From: Candidatus Latescibacterota bacterium
GTDB taxonomy: Bacteria; Latescibacterota; UBA2968; UBA8231
Length of the DNA: 39,299 bases
Assembly: GCA_022820485.1 (NCBI GenBank)
Contig: JAJEFJ010000023.1
Span: 1-39,299 of the forward strand
Direction: 5' to 3'
Of the stretch, positions 11,066 to 15,657 are shown in pieces (positions within the stretch are counted from its first letter, which is position 1; every line of letters starts with the position of its first letter). A model generated the notes under the pieces. That model did no database searches. It was not told the DNA's origin and saw nothing but the letters and a program-made list of their open reading frames with translations. Position numbers and translations under genes: made by a program.

Positions 11066-12436
11066 TTATGGACTGTAGTAGTTCCAAGTCATCTTACTGC
11101 GGCGGTAGTGGTCTTGTGACCACAGGCGCGGATGGTCAGAACCCGGATTCTCGGACTCGTTGAAGTAGATGTGGAGTTGGTCGCCGTGCAAGACGATTAG
11201 CTCTTCGCGCCAATCGCCAGCCACATCGGCGACGTAGAGCCGGTCGGCTTTTTCCTCAAAGCGGTGGAGGAACTGTCCGCTGAGCGGATCGAAGATGCCA
11301 ATATCGCCGGAGGTATGGCGCTCTTTGGCTGCGGCGAGCTGTTTGCGGTCGCCCGTCCAATCGATCTTGTGGATGACCTCGACGCCTCGTACGGTCCAGC
11401 CCTCGGGCGCTACATCGTCCATCTGGTAATCGGCGATCTTCTCGCCCTGTGCGTCAAAAATGAAAGGCTTCTGATGTTCGTTATAGCGGCTCCGGCACCA
11501 TATCTCTAGGCCCGGCCGCTCTAGGTCGAACTCGCCGACCGCTGCGTTCTGGGGTTCTTGATGGCGGAGGTGCGTTTCCCAGAAGAGTTGTTCGTGGTTG
11601 TAGAGAAAAATGCGATTGCCGCCGCCTTCTTCTAGGGCGACGATTTCCAAGCCCGGTACATCGGGAAGCACGTCGTAGATGAAGATCGAGTCGATGTGAC
11701 CGCGCAGGGGAATTTGTAGTAGAATTTCGCCATCGGCAGAGACGACCGTAGCGCCGATTACCTCGTCTTGTCCGTCTCTGTTCAGATCGGCCAGTCGTGC
11801 GCCGTTGTGAGCGCAGGAGACGAAATCGTCGCGTTGCCACAGGGGGACAAAATGGCCGCGACGGAGATCGTCTATTGCATAGGCTGCTAGGAAGCGACCC
11901 ATGCGGTAGCCTTCGGCATTGGTGGTTTGGAGGAGTAGATCTCGATCGCCTGCGCCACGGAAATTGGCGACGACTAAATGCTCCCAGCGTTGGGTGCCTT
12001 TGGGGATGGGCGGCTTTGCGGTCCACTGCTCGCGTCCTGTGGTGCCATCGACCACGTGGAGCGTGCCATCCTGGGTAAGGAACAGCACTTCGACCTGTTT
12101 ATCGCCATCGATATCTGCGGCCTGAACGCCTGGCCCGTGATGGCCGGGTAGGCCGATGCGCTCTGAGGAGCCGCCTATCCAGAGGTCGGTTTCGAGTGTC
12201 CAGAGTTTGCGGCCATCGTGGGCGTGAGCCGTGAGATGATTGGGAACGGTGACCAAGTAATCCATGCGTCCATCGCCATTTAGATCGACGACAATGAGGC
12301 CGCCGGCAGAATCATCAGGGCCGGGAATGTCCAATTGGATGACGAATGGATTTACGGGATATGTAGGCCAGTGTGGCCGCATGTTTCCGGTGGTGGAACA
12401 ACTGGCTAGAATTAACAGTGTTAGAAGGAGTTGCAA
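11066..12436 (-). CDS. FG-GAP/VCBS-like propeller lipoprotein
   Basis: The 456-residue protein starts at a TTG, 3 bp after the previous stop; I see no better start. The N-terminus LLTLLILASC forms a lipobox with Cys13, predicting a lipid-anchored periplasmic or surface protein, although a positively charged n-region is missing. Repeated calcium-type loops DLNGDGRMD, DIDGDKQVE, DLNRDGQDE and a degenerate DVAGDWREE mark FG-GAP/VCBS beta-propeller blades. Such proteins bind or cleave polysaccharide; some rhamnogalacturonan lyases share this architecture, but no catalytic assignment is safe. It forms a tight cluster with the Asp-box propeller upstream and the ankyrin gene downstream. Confidence 0.7.
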   Translation of the reverse strand: MQLLLTLLILASCSTTGNMRPHWPTYPVNPFVIQLDIPGPDDSAGGLIVVDLNGDGRMDYLVTVPNHLTAHAHDGRKLWTLETDLWIGGSSERIGLPGHHGPGVQAADIDGDKQVEVLFLTQDGTLHVVDGTTGREQWTAKPPIPKGTQRWEHLVVANFRGAGDRDLLLQTTNAEGYRMGRFLAAYAIDDLRRGHFVPLWQRDDFVSCAHNGARLADLNRDGQDEVIGATVVSADGEILLQIPLRGHIDSIFIYDVLPDVPGLEIVALEEGGGNRIFLYNHEQLFWETHLRHQEPQNAAVGEFDLERPGLEIWCRSRYNEHQKPFIFDAQGEKIADYQMDDVAPEGWTVRGVEVIHKIDWTGDRKQLAAAKERHTSGDIGIFDPLSGQFLHRFEEKADRLYVADVAGDWREELIVLHGDQLHIYFNESENPGSDHPRLWSQDHYRRSKMTWNYYSP

Positions 12437-12439
12437 CGC

Positions 12440-13369
12440 TTAGACCCCATTCGAGTGGGCGCAGGCCACGGCGACGATGGCAGCGGGTGCGCGCCAAAAC
12501 TCGGACCAACTCTCGCCTCTATCCTCACTGCGGTAGAGCTGATCCTCGACAGCGGCCCAAGCAATCCCCTCGGCGTCAAAGGCGATGTGGAAGGTGTCGA
12601 TATTGCCCTTGGCCTCGGGGAAGCCAGCAAGCGCTTGGGTCCAAGTGCGGCCCGCGTCGTGCGAAAAGTAGAGCTTGCCCTGCACATCTCTGCCGTGACC
12701 AGGGCCTTTGCTGACGCTGGCCAGCAGGCAGTCGGGGTCGCGTGGGTGGACGGCCACGGCGCGGCCATAGCGGCTTGCCAAGCCCTCCTTCCGATGCTTC
12801 CAAGAACCGCCGTAGTCGTCGCTGACAAAGACTGCGTCTGCGGTGTTGGCGTACAAGCGTCCCTCCATAGGGGCGGTAGCTACCTGATGCACATCGGCAT
12901 GCAAGTCCGGGGTCACCGGCTCCCAAGTAGCGCCTCGGTCGGGCGAGCGCATGATGCTGCCGACGTGGATATCGGCAAAAACCCAGTCGCCGCTGCGTGC
13001 CAAGCTGCGCACGGCCGGTGGCCCGCCCCAAGGCGTGTACCAGCTTTGGCGGCATTCTAAAGCGTCAAAGGATTCTATCCGGCGCGCTGGCTCGTCGCCG
13101 TTGAGACTGTACACGTGGGGCGGCTCGGTGCCCAGCAGCACTTGCAGCGGCTCTTCGGACAGCAGGGCGATGCACTCCACCGGATCGCTGATGCCAGTGG
13201 CCTGCGGTTGCGCTTGGCCATTGGCTAAGACGACTACTTGGCCGTCGGCTAGGCCAATGGCGGAACAACGGACGCCCTCGTCTAGGCAGCGGATGCCATC
13301 AATGGCCAAGCGTTGCGTGGGCGTGCCATTCTCCAAGGTGAAGACTTCGTTGCTGGTGGCTATGAGCAT
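12440..13369 (-). CDS. Sialidase-like Asp-box beta-propeller protein
   Basis: The 309-residue protein has at least four Asp boxes (SxDxGxxW): SPDRGATW, SDDYGGSW, SHDAGRTW and SEDRGESW. These are typical of sialidase/VPS10-type propellers. No signal peptide is visible, so it is probably cytosolic, unless export is unconventional. AGGAGG at 8 bp before ATG 13369 is a strong ribosome site. Catalytic sialidase residues (arginine triad, Tyr/Glu pair) are not evident, so it may be a binding or structural propeller. It is preceded by the conserved promoter/hairpin RNA element at 13394-13498, which probably governs its expression together with the downstream lipoprotein and ankyrin genes. Confidence 0.75.
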   Translation of the reverse strand: MLIATSNEVFTLENGTPTQRLAIDGIRCLDEGVRCSAIGLADGQVVVLANGQAQPQATGISDPVECIALLSEEPLQVLLGTEPPHVYSLNGDEPARRIESFDALECRQSWYTPWGGPPAVRSLARSGDWVFADIHVGSIMRSPDRGATWEPVTPDLHADVHQVATAPMEGRLYANTADAVFVSDDYGGSWKHRKEGLASRYGRAVAVHPRDPDCLLASVSKGPGHGRDVQGKLYFSHDAGRTWTQALAGFPEAKGNIDTFHIAFDAEGIAWAAVEDQLYRSEDRGESWSEFWRAPAAIVAVACAHSNGV

Positions 13370-13393: not shown

Positions 13394-13469
13394 ACAAAAG
13401 CCAAACCCGCCGACTCATGGCGTGGCGCGCATGGTGCCGGCGGGTTTTTGTGGCAGCCTGTTAGGCCGT
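13394..13469 (-). ncRNA. Conserved 76-nt hairpin RNA or leader, copy 1
   Basis: On the minus strand, a 76-base segment directly after a -10 box folds as AAACCCGCCG ... CGGCGGGTTT (perfect 10-bp stem) followed by GGCTTTTGT, like an intrinsic terminator. It matches copy 2 (14879-14954) at 71 of 76 bases. Similarity stops right after the T-run, 24 bp before the ATG of the Asp-box propeller gene. This suits either a small RNA gene with its own terminator or a 5' leader controlled by premature termination. The hairpin also resembles a terminator on the plus strand, but no plus-strand gene leads into it. Confidence 0.6.
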
Positions 13470-13498
13470 ATGAAAGCGATAGCTTCTAACCCTGTCAA
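13470..13498 (-). promoter_or_regulatory. Sigma-70-like promoter of hairpin RNA copy 1
   Basis: Minus strand: -35 TTGACA (13493-13498), a 17-base spacer and -10 TTTCAT (13470-13475). The boxes are identical in copy 2 while the spacer matches at only about 8 of 17 positions, as expected if the boxes are under selection. Confidence 0.6.
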
Positions 13499-13567
13499 GG
13501 CCGCATTGTGCACTTTTCGACGATTTGGGCCTTGCACAAATGCGGGCCAATGATTTGCCGCACCTTC

Positions 13568-14857
13568 TCAGCGCTTGAAGTCGTACTCCATCAGCTCGGC
13601 AGTACCTTGCCAGACGATCCCATTGTGCCCCAGCCGACGTGCTTCGCTGATGATGCGGTCGATTGCCTCTGGTGGCCAACCCTCTCCGTGGATAATCGGA
13701 TAGGAAGGCATGTCCGCCGGTAGGTACAGTTTTGCTTTTACCAGATCCCGCAAAACCAAGTCGGCCGTGGGGATTCGATAGGCCAGGGTCGCCGGCTCGT
13801 CAGCGCCGTATGCGGCGATGGTCTCTGGCAACCCCATGCCGTCGTACCCCGTAAAGCGATAGACGAGTTGCAGGGCATCCTCTTCCTGCAGGTTGGGAAT
13901 TTCCTCCTGCAGAAAGCGGGCCCACTCGATGAACGTGTTGCAGACAAAGGCCGAGATGTGGGACACCAGCGGGCTGGCAAAATCGGCCATCTCGCCCCAG
14001 CGCCGGTAGTCGTGGCCCGCTGTCAGTGCCATGGAGGCAGGGTAGGTGTCGGTGCCAAATGCCTTGTTGGGGGCTGCCGCGTGCACTGCCGCCCGAAAGC
14101 GCGCCAGATTGCGGACGACAAGGTCGCAGCGGAAGCGGACCCAGTCGAGTACTCCCGAACCTAGGCCGAGCGCGTGGACCACATCGAAGAAACCAATCCC
14201 GAGACGGACTACTTCGCCGAGGCGGGCACCGTCGAGCTGGCGCAGGCTCTCCCGGGCGCGCTGCAAGTCCTTGACCATCGCTTCCATGTCGTAACCGAGC
14301 TCTTGGGCGGCGGCGGTGCAAGAAGAACAGGTGCAGCCAAAAAGCCCTAGGGGAAAACTGCCCATCGGATAGCGGAAGTGGGTGATGTCGAGCGCGTCGA
14401 GATCGTACTGGGTCACCCAGTACACGCACACGGCCTCGATCCAGTCTTGCACATCCTGCCGCGATGGACAGAACATGAGACGACGAATCGTCCAAGCTCC
14501 TCCGTACGTCCACACATTCAGGCCGGCCTCCTTTAGTTGTCCCACAGCCCTTCTGAACGCTTCGTCGTCGCCTTGGGCCGAGACTCCGGGACCGCACAGG
14601 GCCTGGGCCTGCGGGTATTCCCTCGGGTCTATGGGCCGACCATCGAAGTGCCGTATGACGAGCTTGCCCAGTTCCTCTTCTGTCGGCGTGCGTCCTCCAT
14701 AGGGACTGAGGGCGAGCACCTCCTCCGATAGCTGGCCTGTAAAGGAGAGAACCACTGTATTCAGGCCGATCTCATCGCGCAGCCGCTCGACGTAATCGGG
14801 GTATTTGAGGACCTCATCCGTGGTCAGATAAATTCCGGTGAGCCAATTAGTGGTCAT
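13568..14857 (-). CDS. Glycoside-hydrolase-like TIM-barrel protein
   Basis: The 429-residue protein has no signal peptide. Strand/helix periodicity and the segment LDALDITHFRYP (153-164) followed by a cysteine cluster FGCTCSSC (C175, C177, C180) resemble uncharacterised glycosidase-like TIM barrels, which carry LDGIxxDxxRYP and a nearby CxCxxC. Later strands include NKAFGTDTYPA and HNGIVWQGTAELMEY. I cannot assign a GH family or catalytic acids with confidence. An AAGGAAGG site precedes ATG 14857, 21 bp downstream of hairpin RNA copy 2. It heads the minus-strand cluster with the propeller and lipoprotein genes, but a second promoter/hairpin separates it from them. Confidence 0.6.
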   Translation of the reverse strand: MTTNWLTGIYLTTDEVLKYPDYVERLRDEIGLNTVVLSFTGQLSEEVLALSPYGGRTPTEEELGKLVIRHFDGRPIDPREYPQAQALCGPGVSAQGDDEAFRRAVGQLKEAGLNVWTYGGAWTIRRLMFCPSRQDVQDWIEAVCVYWVTQYDLDALDITHFRYPMGSFPLGLFGCTCSSCTAAAQELGYDMEAMVKDLQRARESLRQLDGARLGEVVRLGIGFFDVVHALGLGSGVLDWVRFRCDLVVRNLARFRAAVHAAAPNKAFGTDTYPASMALTAGHDYRRWGEMADFASPLVSHISAFVCNTFIEWARFLQEEIPNLQEEDALQLVYRFTGYDGMGLPETIAAYGADEPATLAYRIPTADLVLRDLVKAKLYLPADMPSYPIIHGEGWPPEAIDRIISEARRLGHNGIVWQGTAELMEYDFKR

Positions 14858-14878
14858 TTGTTTCCTTCCTTTCGAATC

Positions 14879-14954
14879 ACAAAAGCCAAACCCGCCGACT
14901 CATGGCATGGCGCTCATAGTGCCGGAGGGTTTTTGTGGCAGCCTGTTAAGCCGT
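14879..14954 (-). ncRNA. Conserved 76-nt hairpin RNA or leader, copy 2
   Basis: This is the same element as copy 1, in the 5' region of the TIM-barrel gene. The stem has one mismatch (AAACCCTCCG against CGGCGGGTTT), and the terminal GGCTTTTGT is identical. Because it lies between divergent genes (dcd points away), it cannot be the terminator of an upstream minus-strand gene. That favours a leader or small-RNA role. Confidence 0.6.
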
Positions 14955-14983
14955 ATGAAACTAAGCTATTCCAACTCTGTCAA
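14955..14983 (-). promoter_or_regulatory. Sigma-70-like promoter of hairpin RNA copy 2
   Basis: Minus strand: -35 TTGACA (14978-14983), a 17-base spacer and -10 TTTCAT (14955-14960), the same boxes and spacing as copy 1. Confidence 0.6.
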
Positions 14984-15084: not shown

Positions 15085-15657
15085 ATGGTTCTCAGTGACC
15101 GCGTAATCAAGACGCTGCTGGCAGAAGGCAAAATCGTCGTCGAGCCGCTCGGGGAGGGGTGCATTCAGCCCGCCAGCGTCGATGTTCATCTCGACAAGCA
15201 CATTCTCGTGTTCCGCAACTCGCGCCGTCCATTCATCGACGTGCACGAGGACTTGAGCGACTTAACCGAGATGGAGGAGATCGGCGAGCAGCCGTTTATG
15301 TTGCATCCGGGCGAGTTCGTGCTGGGCAGTACCCTTGAGACGATAGAGCTGCCGGACGATTTGGTGGCGCGGCTTGAGGGCAAGAGTTCGCTGGGGCGCA
15401 TTGGGCTGCTGATTCACTCGACTGCGGGCTATGTGGATCCCGGCTGGAAGGGCCATCTGACGTTGGAGCTAAGCAATGTGGCGAACCTGCCTATCACGCT
15501 GTATCAGGGTATGAAGATCGGGCAGCTCTCGTTCCACCAGCTAGCGACGCCAGCGGATAGCCCCTACGGTTCGCCGGGGCTGGGTAGCAAGTATCAGGGG
15601 CAGACCGTGCCTACGGCTAGCCGCGCGTACCGGGATTTTGGGGGTGGTAAAGGTTAG
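15085..15657 (+). CDS. dcd: dCTP deaminase, probably the bifunctional deaminase/dUTPase type
   Basis: The 190-residue protein has the Dcd core: GKSSLGRIGLL (99-109), STAGYVDPGWKGHLTLELSN (112-131, including catalytic E128) and GMKIGQLSF (142-150). A C-terminal GSKYQGQ segment closes the nucleotide site. Dcd enzymes deaminate dCTP to dUTP. The STAG[FY]xDPG and LELSNVANLPITL wording is that of the bifunctional enzymes from Mycobacterium and archaea, which go on to dUMP, rather than the E. coli type (VTAHRIDPGW). The GGAGGG site precedes ATG 15085. It stands alone on the plus strand, divergent from the TIM-barrel gene. Confidence 0.9.
   Translation: MVLSDRVIKTLLAEGKIVVEPLGEGCIQPASVDVHLDKHILVFRNSRRPFIDVHEDLSDLTEMEEIGEQPFMLHPGEFVLGSTLETIELPDDLVARLEGKSSLGRIGLLIHSTAGYVDPGWKGHLTLELSNVANLPITLYQGMKIGQLSFHQLATPADSPYGSPGLGSKYQGQTVPTASRAYRDFGGGKG

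Follow-up and report, generated by a model that had tools for sequence, protein, structure and literature searches.

Two copies of a short element lie on the minus strand of the 39,299-nt stretch of DNA analysed here, which we call the window. Copy A precedes a gene for a BNR-repeat (Sortilin-like) protein, and copy B precedes a gene for a GHL10-like protein whose PF02638 match, at 22.2 bits, falls under the cut-off of 27.9. Each copy comprises promoter-like boxes followed by a segment predicted to fold into an RNA hairpin. The features are listed below, where G001 is a relative from the same genus.

12440..13369, minus strand: BNR-repeat/Sortilin-like gene downstream of copy A, 309 aa
13370..13393, minus strand: spacer from the copy A hairpin to the start codon, with a Shine-Dalgarno-like AGGAGG
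13394..13462, minus strand: predicted leader RNA hairpin of copy A, 69 nt, from the predicted +1 at AACAGG to GGCUUUUGU
13470..13498, minus strand: promoter-like boxes of copy A (TTGACA 13493-13498, 17-nt spacer, TTTCAT 13470-13475)
13568..14857, minus strand: GHL10-like gene downstream of copy B, 429 aa, PF02638
14879..14947, minus strand: predicted leader RNA hairpin of copy B, with one stem mismatch (G to T) relative to G001
14955..14983, minus strand: promoter-like boxes of copy B (TTGACA 14978-14983, 17-nt spacer, TTTCAT 14955-14960)
15085..15657, plus strand: dCTP deaminase gene, divergent neighbour of copy B

A preliminary description of the window had placed both minus-strand copies at these positions, each with TTGACA-N17-TTTCAT, and our reanalysis bears this out. 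Its further particulars also hold: the copies agree at 71 of the 76 bases after TTTCAT and at only 8 of 17 in the promoter spacer, their similarity ends after GGCTTTTGT, and they stand 24 nt (A) and 21 nt (B) from a start codon. Copy B does sit in a divergent gap, with the dCTP deaminase gene on the other strand, and its placement in G001 is the same. The match of copy A to copy B has an E value of 4.8e-31 and is accompanied elsewhere only by fragments, so the likeness of the two is not due to chance. No third copy was found in the 6.26-Mb, 93%-complete host assembly, where the other 14 of 16 matches at E <= 10 span at most 34 bases at E >= 0.0878.

Two further observations concern the surroundings of copy A. 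Just upstream of its -35 box, at 13501-13545 on the minus strand, lies an imperfect inverted repeat, CCGCATTTGTGCA ... TGCACAATGCGG, which from its sequence is a possible operator; judged by eye, the repeat is nearly the same in the relative G008, half kept in G001 and absent from G004 and G010. The BNR gene is followed by an FG-GAP/rhamnogalacturonan-lyase-like gene (11066-12436, minus strand), which is missing between the BNR and ankyrin genes in G007 and G008 and is represented in G003 by no more than two short matches.

Eight copies of the element were found in seven genomes of one genus, two in the host genome and one in each of six relatives. A search at the DNA level through 194 genomes, the host's included, recovered the unit from the host and from 6 of 10 other members of the genus. 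A degenerate-pattern search of a genome collection returned six stretches, matching the same six relatives, and the same pattern gave no matches in viral contigs. We also ran a covariance-model search, scoring for each genome a limited number of its first-look candidates (at most 150 in a set of 25 family genomes, at most 72 in a set of 64 phylum genomes); strong matches were confined to the same seven genomes. Rfam gave no match in the window at the gathering threshold, and the three matches at E <= 5 lay far under cut-off. Among open-licence papers we found none joining Latescibacter with noncoding RNA.

Weaker matches were dropped. Five genomes outside the genus, of the 12 matched among the 194, contributed only 22-27 nt at E 0.001-0.01, and one out-of-genus match that was read (L017) has no such tail. 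Seven weak covariance matches in the family set (E 0.007-0.65) were also set aside: four are the reverse strand of the same element, two represent a single place in G009, where a plain terminator lies between convergent frames of 67 and 349 aa, and one, in G013, falls inside long reading frames.

When the genes downstream of each copy were checked, the element preceded either the BNR gene (site A) or the GHL10-like gene (site B) in all eight cases, always ending 21-24 nt before the start codon. Orthologues of the BNR gene occur in 7 of the 11 genus genomes, the host included, and site A is occupied in six of these seven, as a co-directional gap each time; the four genus genomes without a BNR match have no element either. 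In G003 the upstream neighbour is a different one and the downstream BNR gene is the same. The BNR match of that genome (L027 1501-2412) contains one in-frame TGA. In the phylum set a BNR relative is present in 36 of the 64 genomes, 29 of them outside the genus, and the leader was absent from all 13 out-of-genus upstream regions that were read.

We inspected site B in eight genomes of the genus whose GHL10 gene has at least 84% identity (the host, G001, G008, G004, G010, G007, G002 and G009), and only the host and G001 have it occupied. In G008 the divergent neighbour is the same and the site is empty. Conversely, G001 has no element at site A and retains there the end of the tail, TTTGGCTTTTGTAAAACC, a remnant that makes loss the simplest reading. 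The distance between GHL10 genes is 0.044 for the host and G008 versus 0.057 for the host and G001, and the deaminase genes differ at 34 of 570 versus 42 of 570 positions in the same comparisons. Since the host and G001 are thus not clear sisters by gene distance, the gain at site B could also have spread by recombination.

The copy in G007 is split. Its leader holds a 1409-bp insertion (L060 3180-4588) with 14-nt inverted ends and a 379-aa frame that is transposase-like in appearance. CAGGCTGCC stands on both sides of the insertion as a 9-bp target duplication, and the break lies just after it. Upstream of the insertion are TTGACA, 17 nt and TTTCAT, and the insertion parts these promoter boxes from the hairpin and the BNR gene. 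An apparent promoter loss in G007, which might have counted against a promoter, is therefore ruled out, because the boxes stand beyond the 1409 bp. For the conservation counts and the G007 fold below, the G007 flanks were rejoined. The first columns of the G007 row in covariance model R1 contain insertion-end bases, and the pair counts are likewise affected; an A-U to G-U change at columns 15/82 stems from insertion bases in that row and so does not count as compensatory.

Every one of the eight copies has TTTCAT and the 17-nt spacing, and TTGACA is present in 7/8, with TTGCGC in G003. Variability along the six A copies is very uneven. Variable columns make up 8/12 of the flank before the -35 box, 3/6 of that box (all from G003), 15/17 of the spacer, 0/6 of TTTCAT and 5/7 of the discriminator. 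Within the RNA they make up 1/16 of the 5' part, 0/11 of the 5' stem arm, 5/21 of the apical part (where 14 columns are gapped in some row), 1/11 of the 3' stem arm and 0/10 of the tail, followed by 5/24 down to the start codon, a stretch in which AGGAGG is present in all six. Without the apical part, only 2 of 48 RNA columns from AACAGG to GGCTTTTGT vary, compared with 49 of 118 four-fold degenerate sites of the BNR gene (Fisher p 5.6e-7, columns treated as independent); the boxes (3/12) likewise vary less than the spacer (p = 0.0013, columns again treated as independent). By these counts the boxes, their spacing and the RNA are constrained. The preliminary description had called the spacer free, which stands insofar as its letters vary and fails insofar as they do so in blocks: the spacer is identical between host copy A and G008, between G004 and G010, and between host copy B and G001, so its letters change in steps between genome groups.

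The conserved block begins 7 nt after TTTCAT in seven of the eight copies (5 nt in G007). With a variable discriminator followed by a nearly invariant RNA, conservation starts at the point expected for initiation. Selection on a transcript started by the conserved boxes, as originally suggested from two copies, is now supported by six to eight. We looked for copies lacking the boxes and found none among the eight (the apparent case in G007 being the split copy), and none of the eight stands at convergent 3' ends; the weak G009 match that does (E 0.0555) is the plain terminator, without the rest of the unit.

Whether the boxes resemble a promoter of this organism is less clear-cut. A consensus sigma-70 scan found no promoters here: the pattern sought is TTGACA, 16-18 nt and a TATAAT-like box whose second base is A, and the element agrees with it in -35 box and spacing but not in TTTCAT, which is without that A. 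In a 400-kb sample, TTGACA occurs 5.5 times per 10 kb upstream of genes versus 0.9 in gene middles. Its frequency on the opposite strand of the same upstream gaps is 4.0 per 10 kb, so that AT-rich gaps explain part of the excess. Behind TTGACA or TTGACT in the host genome, TANNNT peaks at a spacing of 17 nt (5/18), which indicates that the -35 box and the spacing suit the host; TTTCAT, by the consensus scan, is a poor -10 box. Judging from the sequence, the boxes may work as a weak or activator-dependent promoter. Since the 24 nt at most between hairpin and gene leave no room for a promoter, BNR transcripts are expected to carry the leader.

The 82-nt segment of copy A from TTTCAT onwards has a predicted folding energy of -38.8 kcal/mol, which none of 200 shuffles reached. 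For copy B the value is -27.3 kcal/mol and 17 of 200 shuffles were as low (z -1.4), so its fold alone is not remarkable. The 69-nt RNA of copy A is predicted to form a single hairpin of about -35.3 to -35.7 kcal/mol, paired from the second base, and this hairpin beats the best simple hairpin of 112 sampled upstream gaps in the host genome (strongest -29.7). In 7/8 copies the predicted RNA is one end-to-end hairpin, with one free 5' base if, as we infer, +1 lies at AACAGG. Host copy B has a broken stem pair and a weakened, differently shaped predicted fold, in which the tail pairs with bases just before the start codon.

Both substitutions at paired non-apical positions of the A copies keep the pair (C-G to U-G in G003, G-U to G-C in G007), and, save for one base of an A run, changes in length are confined to the loop. 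In all eight copies the GGC interrupting the U tract is paired, with GCC or, in G003, with GCU, as would suit selection acting on a long stem rather than on a clean terminator tail. No pair has changed on both sides and 500 of 500 shuffles reach the observed covariation score, so covariation lends no independent support. With the hairpin ending 21-24 nt before the start codon, the ribosome site lies outside the stem in 8/8, and in five of the six A leaders the Shine-Dalgarno sequence may pair with early coding sequence (P unpaired 0.07-0.31). None of the minimum-energy folds of the eight leaders contains an alternative antiterminator conformation.

Other features of the loop and the stem base were considered. 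In G008 (L062) and G004 (L064) an ATG in the loop is in frame with the BNR gene and would, on paper, add a 21-residue extension. A leader peptide was rejected: by eye, the frame of the loop ATG stops at once in both host copies, differs in G003 and is not conserved. The GCCTAAC before the stem resembles the integron attC motif, but by eye copy B has no matching right-hand site, and this reading was rejected.

The preliminary description had named two kinds of transcript, a premature-termination leader and a small RNA family. For termination, a strict rule (a hairpin of no more than 36 nt, followed by at least 4 T among bases 1-5 and at least 6 among bases 1-8) finds, per 100 kb, 51 hairpins in sense co-directional gaps (10 hits), 10 in antisense (2), 34 in convergent gaps (4), 12 in divergent gaps (2) and 2.9 in genes (21); looser rules showed no clear enrichment at gene ends. 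None of the eight leaders passes the strict T rule with its coding-strand tail, TTTGGCTTTTGT, where GGC breaks the U tract. With a milder T rule and long hairpins the coding strand passes in 7/8, at -23.5 to -32.3 kcal/mol. Sites passing the milder rule at or below -23 kcal/mol number 30.7 per 100 kb in sense co-directional gaps (6) versus 8.4 in genes (61), an enrichment, so the leader may still terminate weakly. The opposite strand passes the strict rule in 1/8, or in 7/8 if hairpins up to 62 nt are admitted. Indeed, on the opposite strand of the hairpin (13403-13447, plus strand) the terminator tail, GGCGGGTTTTTGTGG, is better than that of the coding strand in seven of eight copies, although at site A both flanking genes are on the minus strand. 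The terminator in G009, ACAAAAAACCCGCCG...CGGCGGGTTTTTTGT, shares its stem and A/T runs with the leader; it differs in having an unbroken T tract, in lying between convergent frames and in showing neither boxes nor the 5' segment in the stretch read. Because the two are of the same build, the leader hairpin may derive from a terminator and act as one; in form it resembles a terminator in which a GGC, paired with the 5' segment of the leader, breaks up the U tract.

How the leader acts can be read in several ways. It could be an attenuator, in which RNA polymerase starts at the boxes and often stops at the hairpin and U-rich tail unless a signal allows it to read on. We consider this a serious possibility, though distinctly short of an even chance, and given the terminator-like stem and the milder-rule passes it is a close rival to the reading that we prefer. 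The strong GC stem with an A run before it and U runs after it, the complete invariance of the tail, the G009 terminator and the enrichment of milder-rule sites all speak for it, and a hairpin with a U-rich tail between promoter and gene is the layout of intrinsic-terminator attenuators and of 5'-UTR termination, which is extensive in E. coli according to PMC7815308. Known attenuators differ from this leader, however: the coding-strand tail is broken by GGC in every copy and never passes the strict rule, no competing fold appears in the eight predicted structures (a protein-dependent switch may operate), there is no known ligand or conserved leader reading frame (by eye), and Rfam offers no match. 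The premature-termination leader of the preliminary description thus stays a live candidate.

The same terminator-like end, with promoter-like boxes and a compact RNA, might instead mark an independent trans-acting small RNA whose gene happens to precede these genes. We regard this as improbable, in view of the few copies per genome, the constant distance to the start codon, the end-to-end fold in seven copies with only short unpaired stretches, the absence of the element from the four genus genomes without a BNR match, and the lack of a match to the Hfq model in the host genome (93% complete; control positive in 5/14 genomes); the proposed small RNA family finds no support in these observations. 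Were the hairpin simply to terminate the upstream gene in the ordinary way, copy B being a passive duplicate, the co-directional gap at site A and the similarity to a terminator between convergent frames would follow naturally. The B copies of both genomes nevertheless lie in a divergent gap, start boxes precede the hairpin with no space for another promoter ahead of the gene, the upstream gene differs in G003 while the downstream gene does not, and the strict T rule fails, which makes this quite improbable. Finally, the clean pattern of presence and absence at site B, together with the loss of the site A copy from G001, could be the marks of a small mobile or passive repeat without function. 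MITE- and REP-like repeats have many dispersed copies, whereas our searches found one or two per genome and two sites only; no clear terminal repeats or target duplication were seen at site B (by eye), and the sequence is constrained. We think such a repeat highly improbable.

The element is very probably a conserved 5' leader with its own start boxes. On its function, we tentatively prefer, as a model clearly short of even odds, a protective 5' hairpin lying behind the promoter-like boxes: with this hairpin as its initial 69 nt, the mRNA would be shielded from 5'-end-dependent decay. Transcription would initiate at AACAGG, as suggested by the position of the conserved block, and the first bases of the RNA would pair with the tail (ACAGG-UUUGU, GCCA-UGGC) around an 11-bp stem, leaving a single unpaired 5' base. 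RNase E/G and a 5'-end-processing enzyme would then find no single-stranded end. The host genome encodes an RNase E/G family protein (329 bits); an RNase J model had no match in it (control positive in 13/14 genomes). The alignment of start boxes, conservation edge and stem base, with the ribosome site downstream, gives the leader the look of a 5'-protecting stem-loop. On the other hand, its near-invariance exceeds what a plain protective stem should need, and this counts against the protective reading.

There are precedents in layout. The stabilising leaders of E. coli ompA and papA and of B. subtilis aprE, as described in PMC3997798 and PMC7509114, also place a stem-loop ahead of the ribosome site, at the very 5' end or close to it; unlike them, the leader described here includes its U-rich tail in the pairing and is nearly invariant. 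According to PMC3997798, long downstream regions can be stabilised in B. subtilis by a hairpin located at the 5' end or in its vicinity, and a 5' hairpin stabilises bla mRNA and impedes RppH; by the same source, rpsO mRNA and lacZ mRNA made by T7 polymerase are not stabilised by a sequestered 5' end. A stem-loop too near the ribosome site can lower stability, according to PMC7509114. In being a conserved structured leader the element resembles the cis-regulatory RNAs of Rfam, and it differs from them in having no match at gathering score.

The distribution of copies suggests that the BNR gene is the original owner of the unit and that a single copying event, in the lineage of the host and G001, brought it to the GHL10 gene, after which G001 would have lost the BNR copy and kept the GHL10 copy. 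Such copying would put the BNR and GHL10 genes under one leader. A bolder proposal, which we consider rather unlikely as a whole, is that this is a new genus-limited family of cis-acting RNAs whose promoter and RNA switch move as a single 105-bp cassette. The neighbour of the BNR gene would have received its copy from that gene, the original would then have been lost in one lineage, and a whole regulatory response would thus have passed to a new operon at a stroke. The genus offers natural variants of the unit: the insertion-split copy in G007, the copy only at the next gene in G001, and the doubled, partly decayed pair in the host genome. If these readings are true, comparison alone would have defined a conserved leader RNA for a little-studied uncultured lineage, and site B would document, among close relatives, the spread of a regulatory unit by copying to an adjacent gene.
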